A stretch of DNA of 64,000 bases from Limihaloglobus sulfuriphilus (GTDB lineage: Bacteria > Planctomycetota > Phycisphaerae > Sedimentisphaerales > Sedimentisphaeraceae): contig NZ_CP019646.1 of the NCBI RefSeq assembly GCF_001999965.1, forward strand, positions 992,001-1,056,000, in the 5' to 3' direction. Below, piece by piece: positions 14 to 10,621 of this stretch (within the stretch, counting starts at the first letter, position 1; every line of letters begins with the position of its first letter). A program made the translations under genes and the position numbers. The notes below the pieces were generated by a model. That model saw nothing but the letters and a program-made list of their open reading frames with translations, searched no databases and was not told where the DNA came from.

Positions 14-1021
14 TCAGTCTTTAAGGTCATTTTTCCCGCCTTTCTTTCTCAGGTACGAGCGTGCGAAAAGACCCGCCAGAAGCAGTGCAAAACCGGTATT
101 TATTACGAGGCTGCCTGAATCGGATACAACTTTGAGTACGGTGTATCTGTGTCCCGCGGAGTCGTAGGAGTTCTGATAGATGTGGTACCCTCCATAATGC
201 AGAGGTTTGTTGACCTTTATATCTTTGGTAAACACTTCACCATCGGCTCCTGTGATCTCAACTTCGCTGACATATTCCCTGATCTCTTTGCGGTATGCCA
301 TTCTCAAGCCGTTTTCATCAGGCCTTTGTTCTGGAAATTTCGCGAAGATATATTTTTTATAGCTCTTCGCCTCGGGAGGCTCAACCTTGACCTCAACTGC
401 CGGGTTTATGCCGTCTTGCTGCGAGTCATAGGGCTGCATTCCTGTTTCTGTCTCTTCGAGTTTAAAATTTGAGAACTTTCTTGCTGCCATAATTTTTGTG
501 CCGTCCTGCATTTCTACAAAAGCGCCTGGGAGTATAGAAAGTGTTTTGACCTCCCGGCCGGCATATTCAACAATCAGATAGTCGTCTTTGTAATGTTCCA
601 CCCTGAAATCATTCAGATTTACAGTAAAATCGAGTTTTCTGGATGATTCGTCCGGCAGGATTACGCTGTTGGTCTTCTGGCCTTCATATATAACCATAAA
701 TCCCTGGTTGAATTTGTCTTGTTTTAACAATTTGTTCAGGACAAAAGTCCCGAGCACCGATGACATCGCAAAGCCTGTTAGAATCAAAATACAACCGATA
801 TGTATCAAAAACAGAGTTTTCTGCTTCCTCAGGCTTTTAAAGCAGAAGATTCCAAACACTAAACTCAAAATCATGGCTGCCCAGAAAACCATCATTGGCA
901 CAGAGCTGAAAAGCCCAGCCGCCTTATCGGCGCCCATAAAGGCACCAACGATTGACCACACTGTCCAGAGAACAATGAAAACAATCGTGAGATTCATGGT
1001 TTTTCTGCGTATATTCTTCAT
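14..1021 (-). CDS. ResB-like cytochrome c assembly membrane protein
   Basis: A 335-residue membrane protein with three N-terminal hydrophobic segments (about residues 10-30, 40-60 and 70-95), a large hydrophilic periplasmic part (about 100-300) and one C-terminal membrane segment (about 305-325), which is the ResB/CcsB layout. In system II cytochrome c maturation, ResB works with CcsA to carry heme across the membrane and attach it to CxxCH motifs. The phrases HYGGYHIYQNSYD near residue 275 and KPLHYGG are typical of the family. It is shorter than many ResB proteins, as is common in ResB-like proteins from Planctomycetota and Deltaproteobacteria. Its stop lies 13 bases from the window edge, so a CcsA partner, if present, would lie just outside. 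A likely client is the heptaheme cytochrome at 8804-10621. Family call fairly sure; partner inferred. Confidence 0.8.
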   Translation of the reverse strand: MKNIRRKTMNLTIVFIVLWTVWSIVGAFMGADKAAGLFSSVPMMVFWAAMILSLVFGIFCFKSLRKQKTLFLIHIGCILILTGFAMSSVLGTFVLNKLLKQDKFNQGFMVIYEGQKTNSVILPDESSRKLDFTVNLNDFRVEHYKDDYLIVEYAGREVKTLSILPGAFVEMQDGTKIMAARKFSNFKLEETETGMQPYDSQQDGINPAVEVKVEPPEAKSYKKYIFAKFPEQRPDENGLRMAYRKEIREYVSEVEITGADGEVFTKDIKVNKPLHYGGYHIYQNSYDSAGHRYTVLKVVSDSGSLVINTGFALLLAGLFARSYLRKKGGKNDLKD

Positions 1022-4690: not shown

Positions 4691-5566
4691 TTAGGATTCG
4701 TGCCGCCAGTCTCCGGCGAAAACGACGTTAGGGTTGCCGCAGTCTATTATAATTGCTTTTGCGGATTCTTTTTCGCATAGTTGCTGTATATCATTGTCTT
4801 TCATGATGATAAATGCGGTTGAAAGTCCGTCGGCTATCGCGGCGTCATTGTGAATAACCCATGAAGCGAGGCTGTGGCTGACGGCAGATCCGGTTCTCGG
4901 GTTTATTATGTGTTCGCCTTTTTGCAGGCCTGAGCTTGCCATAGCCGAATCGAGCAGTTTCGCCTTTGTGATAACACCGCCTTTGAGCTGGTTGGTAATT
5001 CTTACCGGCCAGCCGCCGCTGCCGCCGCAGGCGCCGCGGGCCAGCACGGAGCTGCGGCCGCCGTGTATCAGAAAATCCGTAATATCCCATTCGATAAGGA
5101 CTTCCGCCATCTTCTCAAGTGCGTACCCCTTGCCGATGCCTCCAAGGTCAACAGTAACCGGCTCGCCGGATACGCTTACTTTGAAACTATCTATATCAAG
5201 TGCCAGTCTGGAAAAGCCAGATTCAGACCGCACGGGCCCGTTTTTGACAGGTCGATCCTTGTCCATAGTTATATCGAATGCGCCTTCGGTCATTGCGAAA
5301 ATCTTTGCCGCCGCCGCGAGGCATTCCATTGTCCAGGGGCTTACAGTCATCTCTCTGTCGCAGCAGAGACGTGAAATCTGCGTGATTTCGCTGTTGTCTA
5401 TATACCTGCTCAGGTCTTTTTCTAAAAGTTCAATCTCGCGAAAACCCTCGTAAGCCGCCTGAGACGCGTATTTTTTGTCAGGGTGGATTATGTATGCCTC
5501 AAAGGTTGAGTTCATTGCTTCTGAGGCGAAACGGTGTGCTTGTTCAATAGGGTTTACCTTTTTCAT
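4691..5566 (-). CDS. apbE: FAD:protein FMN transferase (ApbE family)
   Basis: A 291-residue ApbE protein. The family links FMN from FAD through a phosphoester bond to Ser/Thr of target redox proteins, and also acts on Rnf/Nqr subunits. Visible family features are VDLGGIGKGYA (about residue 140), the HGGRSS segment (about 170), the EHIINPRTG metal/flavin motif (about 220) and the Asp in AAIADGLSTA (about 245). There is no obvious signal peptide or lipobox, so the mature site is uncertain. It begins four bases after the stop of the GT39-like gene and is probably in one transcript with the cytochrome genes upstream. I saw no ApbE target motif (Dxx[ST]GAT type) in the neighbouring proteins, so its substrate is probably elsewhere or outside the window. 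Confidence 0.92.
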   Translation of the reverse strand: MKKVNPIEQAHRFASEAMNSTFEAYIIHPDKKYASQAAYEGFREIELLEKDLSRYIDNSEITQISRLCCDREMTVSPWTMECLAAAAKIFAMTEGAFDITMDKDRPVKNGPVRSESGFSRLALDIDSFKVSVSGEPVTVDLGGIGKGYALEKMAEVLIEWDITDFLIHGGRSSVLARGACGGSGGWPVRITNQLKGGVITKAKLLDSAMASSGLQKGEHIINPRTGSAVSHSLASWVIHNDAAIADGLSTAFIIMKDNDIQQLCEKESAKAIIIDCGNPNVVFAGDWRHES

Positions 5567-5570
5567 TGCA

Positions 5571-7106
5571 TCAATCCCGAAGCGGCAGATTCAGATTCTG
5601 ATAAGTGGAATATCTTGTGTAAATGTCGCAGTAGAGGCCGTGCCGGAGCTGAAGCGGTTCTTTTGTGCAGAGCATCCAGAGGCTTTTCTCACCCGGTTTT
5701 TCGAGGCTGTAAAGCGTTTGAGCAAGTGCGTCTGACATGTCGGACTGTATAATCACGATATCGCCGGCAGATTCGAGGGTTTCGCTGCTGCTGTGCCAAC
5801 CTGTAAGCGGGTAATTTCGCAGATACCACGGCAGAGGCCAGTAATCGTTTCGCCCGACAATAACGTCAATGCGTGTATTCTCGCCGTTAATGACGTTAGA
5901 GGCTTGATTTATGATTTCTGTTATATCATATACGTCTTCAGTAGTATGCGCATACACATACGGGTTGTCCGGGTCACAGTATTTATAATAATTCAATCCT
6001 GCCGAGAAAAGTACCAAAAGCAGAAATCCCGCCGCGATTACGGACCGGCGAATCACCGTACCGCCGCGTAGTGCCCGGGCCGCGAGGAAACCGGCAAGCA
6101 GGATGGCCCCGAAGTAGAAACTTAAAAGGCACCAAGGGGTTTTGTATGATATAATGGTGTAGAACAGTTCAAGGGCCGCGCTGAAAATAAGGCAAAAGAA
6201 AATCAGAGAATTTTTGGGTCTTGTTAGAGAATCCCATGAATCCGGTCGCATTGCGGCTGCAAGAATCAGTACAACAGGCAGTTCAGCTATCAATATTATC
6301 TTAATGTAAAAATACCATGGATGCAGGTGCCAGTCATGGCTGAAAGCCTTTCCCAGATAGGGACTTAAGTCAAATACAGAGAAAAGGGCGGCAGGGTTTG
6401 TAAAAAAGGTGCTGAAAAAAAACGCCGGCACAAAAATCGCAGGAATAACAAAAAACAATACCCACTGATGCCCATATTCAGATGTTTCACTTTTGATTTT
6501 TTTGAAGTTTATCAGGACATACGCAACCACCGCGGCGGCCGCGGCGAGGATCCAGGTTTCTTTTGTTATTATCATAAGGCCTGTGCATATTCCTGATAGT
6601 AAAATCCAGCGATATCGTTTCGTTTGAGTGAATTTCCAACCGAAGTAAATCGCTGAAAAGGTAAAGAGTACAAGCGGTATTTCCTGGATATAGTAGCGGC
6701 TGTAAAAGAGCATTCCCGGTGAGAGGGCGGTCAGGGCTGAGCAGAGCAGGGCCTCTGTCTTGCCGGCAGTTTTACCCATAAAAAAAGCCAGAACAATAAG
6801 CAGTGTTCCCGCCGCGGCAGGAACAAATCTCAGGTGAGCTTCGGAGAGCTGGTTAATGTTGTCTATGCCGGCAATTTGGCATTCGAGCAGTGAGAGGTAA
6901 TATAAGATCGGTCCGTGGTAATCCTGCGGGTCATATTTGTAGGGCCGCCCCTCGAGCATCTCTGAGAACTTAACTGCGTGGACTGCTTCATCAGTATGCA
7001 TCGGCCTCTGAGCCGGCTTGAGAAGACGCAGAGCAGCCCCGGTGATAAGGATCAAACAAAAACAGATTATCAGATAGTTCTTGTTCATATAAAAGTTTTC
7101 AGGCAT
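5571..7106 (-). CDS. GT39-like polytopic membrane protein (Agl23/TIGR03663-like)
   Basis: A 511-residue integral membrane protein with about ten hydrophobic helices. The first loop has MHTDEAVHA followed by DYHGPILYYL, the acidic and GP signature of ArnT/PMT-like GT-C glycosyltransferases and especially the group named Agl23 or TIGR03663 (flippase-associated protein of unknown function). By family analogy it may use a polyprenyl-linked sugar donor to modify lipid or protein on the outer face. A second ATG six codons in (7088) is possible; neither start has a strong ribosome site. It lies between the discoidin lipoprotein and apbE, spaced 73 and 4 bases. The position suggests it modifies or helps export a component of this envelope group, which is inference. 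Confidence 0.75.
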   Translation of the reverse strand: MPENFYMNKNYLIICFCLILITGAALRLLKPAQRPMHTDEAVHAVKFSEMLEGRPYKYDPQDYHGPILYYLSLLECQIAGIDNINQLSEAHLRFVPAAAGTLLIVLAFFMGKTAGKTEALLCSALTALSPGMLFYSRYYIQEIPLVLFTFSAIYFGWKFTQTKRYRWILLSGICTGLMIITKETWILAAAAAVVAYVLINFKKIKSETSEYGHQWVLFFVIPAIFVPAFFFSTFFTNPAALFSVFDLSPYLGKAFSHDWHLHPWYFYIKIILIAELPVVLILAAAMRPDSWDSLTRPKNSLIFFCLIFSAALELFYTIISYKTPWCLLSFYFGAILLAGFLAARALRGGTVIRRSVIAAGFLLLVLFSAGLNYYKYCDPDNPYVYAHTTEDVYDITEIINQASNVINGENTRIDVIVGRNDYWPLPWYLRNYPLTGWHSSSETLESAGDIVIIQSDMSDALAQTLYSLEKPGEKSLWMLCTKEPLQLRHGLYCDIYTRYSTYQNLNLPLRD

Positions 7107-7179: not shown

Positions 7180-8139
7180 TCATTCTACCGGCTTGCCGTA
7201 AACCTCTACCTCAATGTAGTGGTTAAGCTCGTTGGCGGTATTTCCGTTGCTGTAAAGTTTTACGTAGCGGGCCTTTTTGCCGCCGGCGTTTATGAGTTTG
7301 CCTTCAAACGTTTCTATGTAGTTTTTGTCCTTGCCGATGCCAAGGCCGGAGGAATTGTCGTGGTCGTTGTTGAAGATAGTCACAGGTTCAACAAGAAGAT
7401 CCGGATCATTACCGAGCTGGACGACTACATCGAAATAAACACTGGCCTGCTTGTGGAAGTGCCATACAACGACGGCATATATCTCGTATTCATCTTCCAG
7501 GTCTATAGTTACATGCTGAAGGAACGGGCCCAGCTCTACATAACTGCCTTCGGCGGCCTCTTTGTCGCCGTCGGTTATCATTTCAAGCTCTCCAATAATG
7601 GGCATGTCATCAGAGGACATTATCGGTTTGTTAAGTGCAACATTTTTAGTACCCTCCGGTACGAGAAACGGCGGGCGGGGCTCACCTCTGGCAGGTTCGA
7701 GGTTTTTGACATTTAAATCCTGCGGAGTTCCCACAAACATCGGCTTTGGAAGGTCAATGTTCAGCACTTCCATACCGGGTTGAATGTTTTCTTCCAATGC
7801 TTCTTTGGCAGATTTGTTTATCTGTTCGAGGGTTTCTTCTGTCTCTTTGGCGGCTTTTTCGGTAATCTCGATCTTTTTCTCCGGCTCGGCGGCCATTTGA
7901 GATAGCTCCGTTTTTGTTTCTTCGACTACTTCTGCCGCCTCTTCATTTACTTCAGCGGCTATTTGCTCGGGAGTTTTTTGGGATGCACCAACCGCTTCAG
8001 TTTGAGCTGCTTCTTCAGAGGTTTGTTCCCCGCTTGCCGGGGGAGCAGGCTGCGGCTCGGACTTTTTGCAGGAGCTAACCGTTAAAGCGCAAGCCGCGAC
8101 TAAAGTTATTGTCAATAATGTTTTAAGAATCTTTTTCAT
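7180..8139 (-). CDS. Lipoprotein with coiled coil and discoidin (F5/8 type C)-like domain
   Basis: A 319-residue predicted lipoprotein. The signal ends in a lipobox (VSSC, Cys24). Residues about 30-130 are rich in Ala, Glu, Lys and Thr in heptad-like order (repeats of EAAE, EKAAKETEE), consistent with a long coiled-coil stalk. A C-terminal beta-sandwich (about 165-318) starts NVALNKPIMSSD, contains MITDGD and ends YVKLYSNG...EVEVYG, the discoidin or galactose-binding pattern. It probably stands off the membrane and binds a glycan or neighbouring protein. It sits between the cytochrome-b-like protein and the GT39-like protein with short gaps (34 and 73 bases). AAGG precedes the start. Function in the redox group is not known. 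Confidence 0.8.
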   Translation of the reverse strand: MKKILKTLLTITLVAACALTVSSCKKSEPQPAPPASGEQTSEEAAQTEAVGASQKTPEQIAAEVNEEAAEVVEETKTELSQMAAEPEKKIEITEKAAKETEETLEQINKSAKEALEENIQPGMEVLNIDLPKPMFVGTPQDLNVKNLEPARGEPRPPFLVPEGTKNVALNKPIMSSDDMPIIGELEMITDGDKEAAEGSYVELGPFLQHVTIDLEDEYEIYAVVVWHFHKQASVYFDVVVQLGNDPDLLVEPVTIFNNDHDNSSGLGIGKDKNYIETFEGKLINAGGKKARYVKLYSNGNTANELNHYIEVEVYGKPVE

Positions 8140-8173: not shown

Positions 8174-8794
8174 TTATTTCTTATCTTTATCAGGAATCAT
8201 TATACCGTAAATAAATATAATTGAAAACAGCATAAATGCAAGCGCTGTATATTTGTGTGCTGTCATCAAAATACGCTGCCACTGCGTTCCGAAAATTTTA
8301 AACATGCCAAGGAGTATAGAGAGCACCAGCGGCACAAAAAGTATTACCAAAATCCAGAAAGTTGAACGTAGAATACATCTGGAGCAGTAATTGTCACATT
8401 TTATTTCAACTTTCCTGCCTAAGTATTTTTCCAGCGGTGGGTTGAGTTTCATTCGCTGGGCATTGAAAAGTGCGAAAAGAACAAAAATAACCGCAAAAGC
8501 CCCAGATATCGGCACATGTGCCATCATTAGCCAGCCGCTGATGTTTTCGCCCTTTATCAGCGGGTTCCAGAAGCCGCTCAGAGCAAGTAAGACCAGACAG
8601 CCCAGCGCCGCCAGACTTATCAGCAGGTTTAATATTCCAGGTAAGGCAGAGCGAAAGGATCCTTTTATAAAGACAAGTTTTTTGAAGCCGTTGACGCTGA
8701 GACGCTGCTTTCTGATCAGGCTTAAATACAGAAAGTGAGCGGCAATAAGTGCCGCCACGGCGATAAAACTAATTATAAATACTATTTTAAACAT
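8174..8794 (-). CDS. Cytochrome b-like membrane protein with CxxxCxxC loop
   Basis: A 206-residue membrane protein with about five hydrophobic segments. Two segments begin with similar histidine motifs, LMMAHVP (His93) and LMTAHKY (His180), which could be a bis-His heme b ligand pair. A third His (His20) lies in the first segment. A soluble loop between helices carries CDNYCSRC (Cys133, 137, 140), a possible metal or Fe-S site. It starts nine bases after the stop of the heptaheme cytochrome, with AGAGG upstream, so the two are almost certainly co-expressed. By analogy with quinol-linked membrane cytochrome b partners of multiheme cytochromes, it may move electrons between the quinone pool and the heptaheme protein. 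I cannot assign it to a named family. Confidence 0.65.
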   Translation of the reverse strand: MFKIVFIISFIAVAALIAAHFLYLSLIRKQRLSVNGFKKLVFIKGSFRSALPGILNLLISLAALGCLVLLALSGFWNPLIKGENISGWLMMAHVPISGAFAVIFVLFALFNAQRMKLNPPLEKYLGRKVEIKCDNYCSRCILRSTFWILVILFVPLVLSILLGMFKIFGTQWQRILMTAHKYTALAFMLFSIIFIYGIMIPDKDKK

Positions 8795-8803
8795 GACTTA
8801 CCT

Positions 8804-10621
8804 CTACTCTTCATTGCCTAAAAATTCTACCGTCCTGTTAAGGGCCTTGAATCCAAACAGCAGGATAATCATCAACGCCAGTGTTGCTGCTGCGATCATA
8901 ACAGCCTTGAGCCAGGGCCTGAAAATAAAAGAACCGGCAAATATTTTTGTATATGCAGGATCAACATTCTCAAACTCAAACATCTTTTTGAATTCGGGCA
9001 TAGCTGCGGAAAAGGCGTTTGTTACTTCGACATCTCCGAAGAAAAAGGCCGAGTCTGTTGAATGGCATTCCTGGCAGTTTGCCGAAGCTCCGAGGGCGTC
9101 TCCTTCGCCGCGTACATCGTGACCGATAGCCCAAAGGTATGGTTTGGCAAATTGATTTTCGCTTGAAATAAGTTTTTCGCCTTCTTTTTTATACAGTTTG
9201 CCGCCGGTGACAAACACCGGAGTGCCTTTGACTTTGTCAGAGCCGGCAAAGAGGCTGAGTATCTCCGCGGCCATGTCCTCTGTCAGTTCATCAGTGTCTT
9301 CGGTAATAGGGCGGACAATTGTTTTAACCAGCTCAATATCTATCGGTGTGACATTTTCGCCAGTCTGCGCTGCCCAGAATGACGGCCATACCATATTGCA
9401 GGGCTCTATCTTGCCGTCTTTGTTCTCGGCAAAAACGGGCGATATCACCGCCGCTCCCTCGCGGTTATCATTGTGAAGCAGACCAAGCTGGTGGATTCTT
9501 GAGGTTTTTACCCTCTGGGTGGTTTTTTCAGGTTTAAGTCCCGAGTGGCACGCGGTACAAGAAAGCCGGTCAAAATGCACTGCCGGCAATCCTTTATGCT
9601 CGGCTATCGGAGCTCCGAGGCGGCCGTCTTCGTGGCAGCTTACGCAGGTGTATTGGGAGGATACGGGGTTTTCGGGATGGCCGTCTTCATTGCCGCGTAT
9701 AATATTATGGTCAACGCCATTGCGGTGGCAGTCAACACAGCTAAGTCCCGAGGCCATGTGTACGTCTGACTCGGTCATCCATTTTTCGGTATCTTCATTC
9801 ATAAGTGCCGTAGAGTGGCAGAAATAGCATCTTTGAGCACCGGCATCAGCCTTTATGTCAAAGAGCATCTTGCCGTCCGGCGTGAATGCGTCGTCGTGAT
9901 ATTCAATCTCCGGCGGGCTGCCGGTACCTGAATCGGGGAAAAACGGATCCCAGGTGTCGGGCATTGTTGAGGCGATTCCGCTGACAGTTGACTTTTCACC
10001 GGCGCCGGCAGGTGCCCAGCGGAAATTCTCTCTGGCGATCTGCAGGGCGTATTCTTTCTGATCCTGGCCCCAATGCCCGTTATGACAGGCGAGGCAGTTA
10101 ATCTCCTGTTTTCCAGATACATACTGCCGCATGATTTCTTCGGGTATTTCGCTTTCCATCTCACCGGCTCCGCCGCCGGGGCTTTGTATCCCGAATCGTT
10201 TCGTAAACTCCATCGGGCTCATGCCAATGTCGGCCGGATCCCAGGCGCCGTCCCAGTCTCGGTATGAAAGGGGAATCTGTGTGTGTATGGTCTTATCGAA
10301 ATATATCCATGGCTCGCCGGCTCTGCCGGGGGTAACCTCTGGGTTTATGGCGTTGAAATGCCAGCCTGAGGCAACGCGGGCATATTCGTGGCACTGGCCG
10401 CAGGTTTGTTTAGTTGAAAAGGGCATCAGAAATTCATCATCAGGACTGATTTTGGTACCTTCCTCATCAAACGGTTCTAAAAGGTGGACGATTTCGCCCC
10501 GACTGCCGTCACTCTTGTCGATAATAAGTTCGTCAGCCGCGGATAACACCGCCGGCGCGAACGCCAGTAAGATAATCGCTGATATTACTATCAACGTAAT
10601 CTTTTTTTTATTTTTCGCCAT
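8804..10621 (-). CDS. Membrane-anchored heptaheme cytochrome c
   Basis: A 605-residue protein using the ATG at 10621, preceded by GGGGGA and followed by a clean signal peptide (residues 1-28); an earlier in-frame ATG at 10654 lacks these. Seven CxxCH heme-binding motifs are present in order: CGQCH (Cys74), CLACH, CYFCH, CVDCH, CVSCH, CTACH and CQECH. Extra histidines (for example GWHFNA, DHNI, EHKG) could be distal ligands. A single membrane helix lies near the C-terminus (about 570-590) followed by a short positive tail, so the heme domain faces the periplasm. It is first in the redox gene group, followed at nine bases by the cytochrome-b-like protein. The likely role is electron transfer across or out of the envelope; acceptor unknown. 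ResB (14-1021) would supply heme attachment. Confidence 0.88.
   Translation of the reverse strand: MAKNKKKITLIVISAIILLAFAPAVLSAADELIIDKSDGSRGEIVHLLEPFDEEGTKISPDDEFLMPFSTKQTCGQCHEYARVASGWHFNAINPEVTPGRAGEPWIYFDKTIHTQIPLSYRDWDGAWDPADIGMSPMEFTKRFGIQSPGGGAGEMESEIPEEIMRQYVSGKQEINCLACHNGHWGQDQKEYALQIARENFRWAPAGAGEKSTVSGIASTMPDTWDPFFPDSGTGSPPEIEYHDDAFTPDGKMLFDIKADAGAQRCYFCHSTALMNEDTEKWMTESDVHMASGLSCVDCHRNGVDHNIIRGNEDGHPENPVSSQYTCVSCHEDGRLGAPIAEHKGLPAVHFDRLSCTACHSGLKPEKTTQRVKTSRIHQLGLLHNDNREGAAVISPVFAENKDGKIEPCNMVWPSFWAAQTGENVTPIDIELVKTIVRPITEDTDELTEDMAAEILSLFAGSDKVKGTPVFVTGGKLYKKEGEKLISSENQFAKPYLWAIGHDVRGEGDALGASANCQECHSTDSAFFFGDVEVTNAFSAAMPEFKKMFEFENVDPAYTKIFAGSFIFRPWLKAVMIAAATLALMIILLFGFKALNRTVEFLGNEE

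Follow-up and report, generated by a model that had tools for sequence, protein, structure and literature searches.

Heptaheme cytochrome and membrane partner

The window analysed in the present study is a 64,000-nucleotide stretch (bases 992001-1056000) of the one-contig 3.87-Mb genome of Limihaloglobus sulfuriphilus, and we focus on a pair of adjacent genes within it, encoding a heptaheme c-type cytochrome and a cytochrome-b-like membrane protein. The heptaheme protein (605 residues, 10621..8804, reverse strand) has a hydrophobic signal-like N-terminus, one C-terminal transmembrane helix and seven CxxCH motifs, at residues 74, 176, 265, 295, 326, 355 and 516. Nine bases 3' of its open reading frame (ORF) begins that of the b-like protein (206 residues, five helices, 8794..8174, reverse strand), which carries two conserved histidines, H93 and H180. 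The same strand continues with a lipoprotein (8139..7180) comprising a lipobox, a coiled-coil-like stretch and a discoidin/F5-8 type C-like domain, a GT39/Agl23-type membrane glycosyltransferase (7106..5571; TIGR03663 194.6 bits, cut-off 126.25), an ApbE-family flavin transferase (5566..4691; PF02424 128.9 bits, cut-off 25.6) and, further on, a ResB-like cytochrome c biogenesis protein (1021..14; PF05140 66.8 bits, cut-off 24.6). An earlier note, made from the bases of the window alone, had described this arrangement, and its account of the genes is confirmed: exactly seven CxxCH were counted in the 605-residue ORF, the nine-base spacing and the five long helices of the b-like protein (the latter in an AlphaFold model) were borne out, both histidines that it singled out are conserved, and the GT39, ApbE and ResB assignments lie above the profile cut-offs. 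The discoidin-like domain that it assigned to the lipoprotein fared less evenly, the match falling below the cut-off in the window and above the Pfam cut-off in a relative (L053). DUF1980 and other domain matches to window proteins were all below cut-off.

The heptaheme protein was aligned with 42 rows chosen from 78, rows with stops or N having been left out. Strict counting found seven CxxCH in 40 of these 43 proteins and six in three, and the haem-motif columns are invariant in the alignment; the seven CxxCH histidines and eight further histidines (46, 88, 288, 305, 342, 349, 377 and 501) are each present in 43/43 rows. Since the eight extra histidines suffice as distal ligands for all seven haems, we read the protein as a probable wire and not a catalyst. 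The AlphaFold model (predicted local distance difference test score, pLDDT, of 80) includes a C-terminal helix at 555-604, and a beta-rich stretch lies between haems 6 and 7. In a tree of the 43 proteins, three changes are needed for Planctomycetota and three for Calditrichota, and the window protein has no firm placement.

Alternatively, the heptaheme protein could be a terminal reductase of a small molecule, resembling NrfA or octaheme tetrathionate reductase and fed by the b-like protein as quinol dehydrogenase, with the sugar genes described below merely co-regulated. A weak profile match to NrfA (48 positions, E 3.5e-5), a weak structural alignment to octaheme tetrathionate reductase (Z 5.8 over 290 residues) and a weak match to the methanogen heptaheme family TIGR04314 (35.4 bits, below the equivalog cut-off of 250) speak for this explanation, which we nevertheless consider improbable: CxxCK occurs neither in the window protein nor in the 43 aligned rows, the eight invariant histidines outside CxxCH leave no obvious open haem, and it would leave the close association with Gfo/Idh/MocA genes unexplained. 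Identity with octaheme tetrathionate reductase itself was rejected, a Z of 5.8 being too weak for an assignment.

The b-like protein was compared with 52 rows chosen from 74, again excluding those with stops or N. It contains just three histidines, H20, H93 and H180, which are conserved in 31, 52 and 53 of the 53 aligned rows, respectively. The CxxxCxxC to which the earlier note had drawn attention is present (C133, C137 and C140) but its cysteines are not conserved among the 53 rows, and we rejected it as a site for binding metal or haem. Lysine and arginine are common in loops 26-48, 112-136 and 198-206 (0.18, 0.18 and 0.24 per residue) and rare in loops 80-88 and 162-168 (0.05 and 0.01 per residue), a distribution that places H93 and H180 in the periplasmic half of the membrane. 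This placement would agree with an out-to-in C-terminal helix of the heptaheme protein in fused proteins (see below), and the two histidines probably coordinate a single haem b close to the periplasmic side. A profile of the 53 rows retrieved the FdnI chain 1kqf_C (E 3.2e-6), which also ranked first in structural alignment (Z 11.6, 3.1 Å, 148 residues), with cytochrome b6 chains tied within 1 and with the caveat that helical bundles can score high by chance. One relative (L098) matched TIGR01583 (formate dehydrogenase gamma) with E 1.1e-8 and 35.3 bits, below the cut-off of 115.85, and the window protein itself gave no TIGR01583 match. Taken together, these similarities suggest a distant b-type relative of FdnI that would hold a single haem where FdnI has two. 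Of 59 genomes of the order, 30 encode homologues, the window's own included, whereas none of the four other genomes of the same family does.

Conserved gene neighbourhood

The best 80 of 237 heptaheme relatives were examined as loci, a selection in which weaker relatives are under-represented, on contigs titled Planctomycetota, Verrucomicrobiota, Calditrichota, KSB1, Omnitrophota, Marinimicrobia, Bacteroidetes and Deferribacteres. The b-like gene lies directly downstream of the heptaheme gene in 74/80 loci, and a Gfo/Idh/MocA gene lies directly upstream (<600 nt, same strand) in 72/80; a loose pattern for the twin-arginine translocation (TAT) motif matched 65 of these 72 upstream proteins. Where the upstream gene is absent (eight loci), the contig starts within 193 nt in six, leaving L106 and L154 as real exceptions. 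Counts made with hidden Markov models built from relatives within the order (those for the isomerase-like and hydrolase proteins from four and five sequences), and lowered by contigs that end inside the block, gave b-like proteins in 74 loci, Gfo/Idh/MocA in 73, PF06439-like in 54, the lipoprotein in 49, GT39 in 46, ApbE in 45 and isomerase-like proteins in 43. The order lipoprotein-GT39-ApbE is kept in all 44 loci with all three genes. Some of the order-level relatives and some of the 80 loci are the same contigs and are not independent samples.

An unseeded clustering of 955 neighbouring ORFs returned the same partners together with a permease (36 loci) and a family-2 glycosyltransferase, GT2 (27 loci). 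Within the order, the block comprises TAT-signal Gfo/Idh/MocA proteins, proteins with a sugar-isomerase-like barrel, a 3-keto-disaccharide hydrolase domain (PF06439) or both, glycoside hydrolases and permeases; Pfam confirmed the neighbour families for 20 selected proteins and then for seven more. Heptaheme and b-like proteins are fused in one ORF in 4/80 loci and also among the order-level loci. The pair and the lipoprotein-GT39-ApbE order, whose recurrence the earlier note had proposed as a check, thus recur, and the arrangement in the window is therefore not due to chance. Two histidines of the small protein are conserved and its homologues do stand beside multiheme cytochromes. The small protein is cytochrome-b-like and the heptaheme protein's constant companion, in some cases within one fused ORF.

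These neighbours bear on the suggestion, made in the earlier note, of quinone-to-surface electron transfer, that is, extracellular electron transfer from quinol through the b-like protein and the heptaheme protein to the cell surface. A membrane-anchored multiheme cytochrome with a b-type partner and a lipoprotein nearby would suit such a route, and its quinone part is plausible. The surface part does not hold up well, as the constant neighbours are exported sugar enzymes and transporters, with no further multiheme cytochrome among the frequent neighbour clusters of the 80 loci (outer-membrane barrels and porins were not specifically searched), and the heptaheme protein is tethered by its own C-terminal helix; we give transfer to the surface only a small chance. 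A functional link of the pair to exported sugar dehydrogenases is well supported by the same neighbours, and we consider it probable that the heptaheme and b-like proteins form the electron outlet for the exported Gfo/Idh/MocA dehydrogenases of a 3-keto-sugar pathway.

GFO1 dehydrogenase and its co-occurrence with the heptaheme protein

The upstream Gfo/Idh/MocA protein, here termed GFO1, is a distinct, highly conserved subfamily (mean column identity 63% over 28 rows chosen from 66). Its profile found DgpA enzymes as the best solved relatives. Against the glycoside 3-dehydrogenase family NF058561 (BT_2158) the GFO1 protein of the window's genome aligned with 88 bits, far below the cut-off of 750, and the reaction assigned to GFO1 is therefore a predicted one.

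The sole clear GFO1 gene of the window's own genome is unlinked to the window (3,155,954-3,157,297; 807 bits, next 131) and encodes a TAT signal. Genome-wide Pfam searches gave seven PF06439 and 26 PF01408 matches, and near 1.463-1.470 Mb there are genes for an isomerase-hydrolase protein, a sodium-solute symporter, a TAT-type Gfo/Idh/MocA protein and a permease that shares its Pfam family with the one beside the heptaheme gene in relatives. The parts of the pathway are present but dispersed in this genome.

Among 244 genomes of the phylum, the heptaheme protein was detected in 16, GFO1 in 15 and both in 13 (Fisher p 4.6e-17, in a test that ignores kinship and at score limits, >330 bits for the heptaheme protein and below 1e-120 for GFO1, chosen after the scores had been seen). 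In the genome of L154, one of the two exceptions above, GFO1 is on another contig (729 bits). The two genomes with GFO1 and no heptaheme protein keep it near ApbE, followed by GT39 and ApbE in G156 and by an ApbE domain in G252, and the link between GFO1 and ApbE is therefore independent of the heptaheme protein. At locus L197, where the heptaheme gene is lacking, GFO1 stands with GT39, ApbE, ThuA and a MauE-like membrane protein, which might replace the cytochrome outlet. The greedy ORF caller failed to resolve L196 and the GFO1 genes of L198 and L200.

A divergent heptaheme group (145-290 bits) occurs in eleven genomes of one family and in G270, none of which contains GFO1. At the loci L192, L193 and L195 (G169) the divergent heptaheme gene lies beside genes for a TAT-type Gfo/Idh/MocA protein and ApbE, two of the eleven genomes (L192 and L193) having been examined at locus level; L193 and L195 have an FGE-sulfatase-domain protein in place of GT39 and the discoidin lipoprotein. 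In G270 (L199) neither a TAT-type Gfo/Idh/MocA gene nor ApbE was found beside the divergent heptaheme gene. The latter contig also carries an 876-residue ORF (L199:5708-8335) with eight CxxCH and approximately six membrane helices, weakly heptaheme-like, around which no sugar genes were recognised.

ApbE and other neighbouring genes

The window ApbE has no visible signal peptide and retains intact DLGGIGKG, HIINPRTG and DGLSTA, which we take to be its catalytic motifs. Among 41 stand-alone ApbE proteins, a simple script detected a hydrophobic segment ahead of the matched domain in only one, whose match begins far into the domain. ApbE thus looks cytosolic in these clusters, judging from the protein sequences, which would fit flavin loading of TAT cargo before export; the lipobox-like signal on ApbE of L193 and L195 does not fit such loading. 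ApbE targets carry a [S/T]GA[S/T]-like motif (PMC11334425). The earlier note had seen no flavin target, and indeed D..[ST]GA[ST] does not occur in window open frames of at least 100 residues. The lipoprotein, GT39, b-like, heptaheme and GFO1 proteins were each rejected as a canonical target, having no conserved motif. Elsewhere in the genome there are a second, stronger ApbE (254.8 bits) and two FMN_bind proteins, and the window ApbE therefore need not serve ordinary targets.

A second unit is made up of the lipoprotein, GT39 and ApbE. Carbohydrate binding or presentation by the lipoprotein, and glycosylation of a partner protein or molecule by GT39, are speculative roles within it. GT39 and ApbE are fused in 4/80 loci and also among the order-level loci, as single ORFs of ~827-846 residues (L045, L047, L061, L062, L155, L157, L163 and L166), an architecture that to our knowledge has not been described. 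Downstream of ApbE in 27/80 loci, on the opposite strand, is the gene for the family-2 glycosyltransferase (e.g. L104:11959-12699), which possibly makes the lipid-linked sugar for GT39.

CcsA, for which the earlier note had proposed a look left of the window, was found there, directly adjoining ResB (L031:19142-19930, reaching window base 30; PF01578 108.1 bits). ResB and CcsA are accessory and outside the conserved block. Also outside it, and between ApbE and ResB, are genes for a PEP-CTERM protein (4596-3655) and a fibronectin-domain subtilase (3658-1172), which overlap by four bases.

Proposed electron route

In the route that we propose, TAT-exported GFO1, assigned to its family by sequence, would oxidise a sugar and hold the electrons as bound reduced nicotinamide adenine dinucleotide (NADH). 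In support, DgpA keeps NAD(H) bound and needs an external oxidant, its NADH being re-oxidised by 3-oxo-glucose (PMC11239390). A putative converter from two-electron to one-electron transfer, presumably an ApbE-supplied flavin, would hand on single electrons, which would then pass through seven c haems, bis-histidine ligated to judge from the invariant histidines. From there, conservation and topology point to a single b haem that H93 and H180 would ligate close to the periplasmic side; from this haem, electrons would probably enter the quinone pool. The direction from sugar to quinone is moderately supported, and the quinone link of the b-like protein is plausible.

Flow could also run in reverse, with quinol reducing the heptaheme protein to feed periplasmic reduction of keto-sugars by the Gfo/Idh/MocA enzyme. 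DgpA reduces 3-oxo-glucose with bound NADH (PMC11239390), so such enzymes can run both ways. The 3-keto pathway is, however, net oxidative at its first step and so lacks an electron sink. We know of no electron flow from haem to NAD+ in this setting, which also counts against reverse flow, and we regard it as very unlikely.

Several observations weigh against the proposed electron outlet. NADH donates hydride whereas haems accept electrons one at a time, so a hydride-to-single-electron converter is needed; the presence of ApbE in the clusters suggests a flavin in this role, and neither a flavoprotein nor an ApbE target motif was found among the six partner families or the window open frames. 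The direction of electron flow is not readable from sequence. The window cluster itself is without a Gfo/Idh/MocA gene, and no PF06439 or PF01408 match falls inside the window. The association between the heptaheme protein and GFO1, to which the reservations on kinship and post hoc score limits apply, is broken by heptaheme proteins without GFO1 in G215, G169 and G234 and by GFO1 without a heptaheme protein in G156 and G252, and the genome of the other exceptional locus (L106/G295) has heptaheme, b-like and lipoprotein genes and no GFO1 orthologue (best 118 bits). Foldseek returned only unrelated matches with E above 0.1 for the heptaheme model and no match below E 0.1 for the b-like model. 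Finally, no other terminal branch of the tree is as long as that of the window heptaheme protein (1.4), so its role could have shifted.

In a broader version of the proposed outlet, GFO1 and the heptaheme/b-like pair might together act as a terminal oxidase common to the NAD-bound sugar dehydrogenases of the periplasm by way of a diffusible keto-sugar shuttle, with ApbE flavinylating GFO1 before TAT export through a new motif. We consider this version unlikely. If true, GFO1 would regenerate a keto-sugar (e.g. 3-keto-glucose) that re-oxidises many substrate-specific Gfo/Idh/MocA enzymes, sugar would replace NADH as the extracytoplasmic electron carrier, and one cytochrome complex would serve dozens of dehydrogenases.

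Extracytoplasmic oxidative 3-keto glycan cleavage needs an electron sink, and the electron outlet proposed here, if real, would link the breakdown of glycans directly with respiration in Planctomycetota, Verrucomicrobiota, Calditrichota, KSB1 and others. The ApbE without a recognisable target and the GT39-ApbE fusion offer further leads. We found no description of a heptaheme cytochrome paired with Gfo/Idh/MocA enzymes in the accessible literature, which leaves most subscription papers outside and does not show absence from print.

Comparison with known systems

Among multiheme cytochromes, TIGR04314 and the octaheme tetrathionate reductase family TIGR04315 have a haem spacing that resembles the heptaheme protein over part of the models; the differences are a score of 35.4 bits against the required 250 for TIGR04314, and seven haems, not eight. 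NrfA has a CxxCK active-site haem in most members, with some using CxxCH, and differs in that CxxCK is absent from the heptaheme protein and the 43 rows. The b-like protein shares with the flavinylation-associated cytochromes of the DUF4405/FezC/MsrQ-like type the properties of a small membrane b-cytochrome near apbE (PMC11334425), and differs in having no Pfam match to DUF4405 up to E 1 and no flavinylated partner that we could find. Among solved structures, FdnI (TIGR01583) matches it best in both profile and fold comparisons, with a common helix-bundle haem-b core, an FW motif and H93 aligned with an FdnI histidine. FdnI has four histidine ligands for two haems b, whereas the b-like protein has two conserved histidines and is partnered by a heptaheme c-cytochrome, not by FdnG/FdnH.

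On the sugar side, the LacABC/DUF1080 system of Caulobacter and others likewise combines periplasmic C3 oxidation of sugar with subsequent action of a PF06439 (DUF1080) hydrolase (PMC9007349). The system described here differs in its TAT-type Gfo/Idh/MocA dehydrogenase and its proposed heptaheme/b-like acceptor. DgpA and BT_2158-type glycoside 3-dehydrogenases belong to the same superfamily as GFO1 and are its best partial matches. DgpA is recycled by 3-oxo-glucose (PMC11239390), whereas GFO1 is a distinct subfamily (88 against 750 bits) for which we propose a cytochrome outlet.

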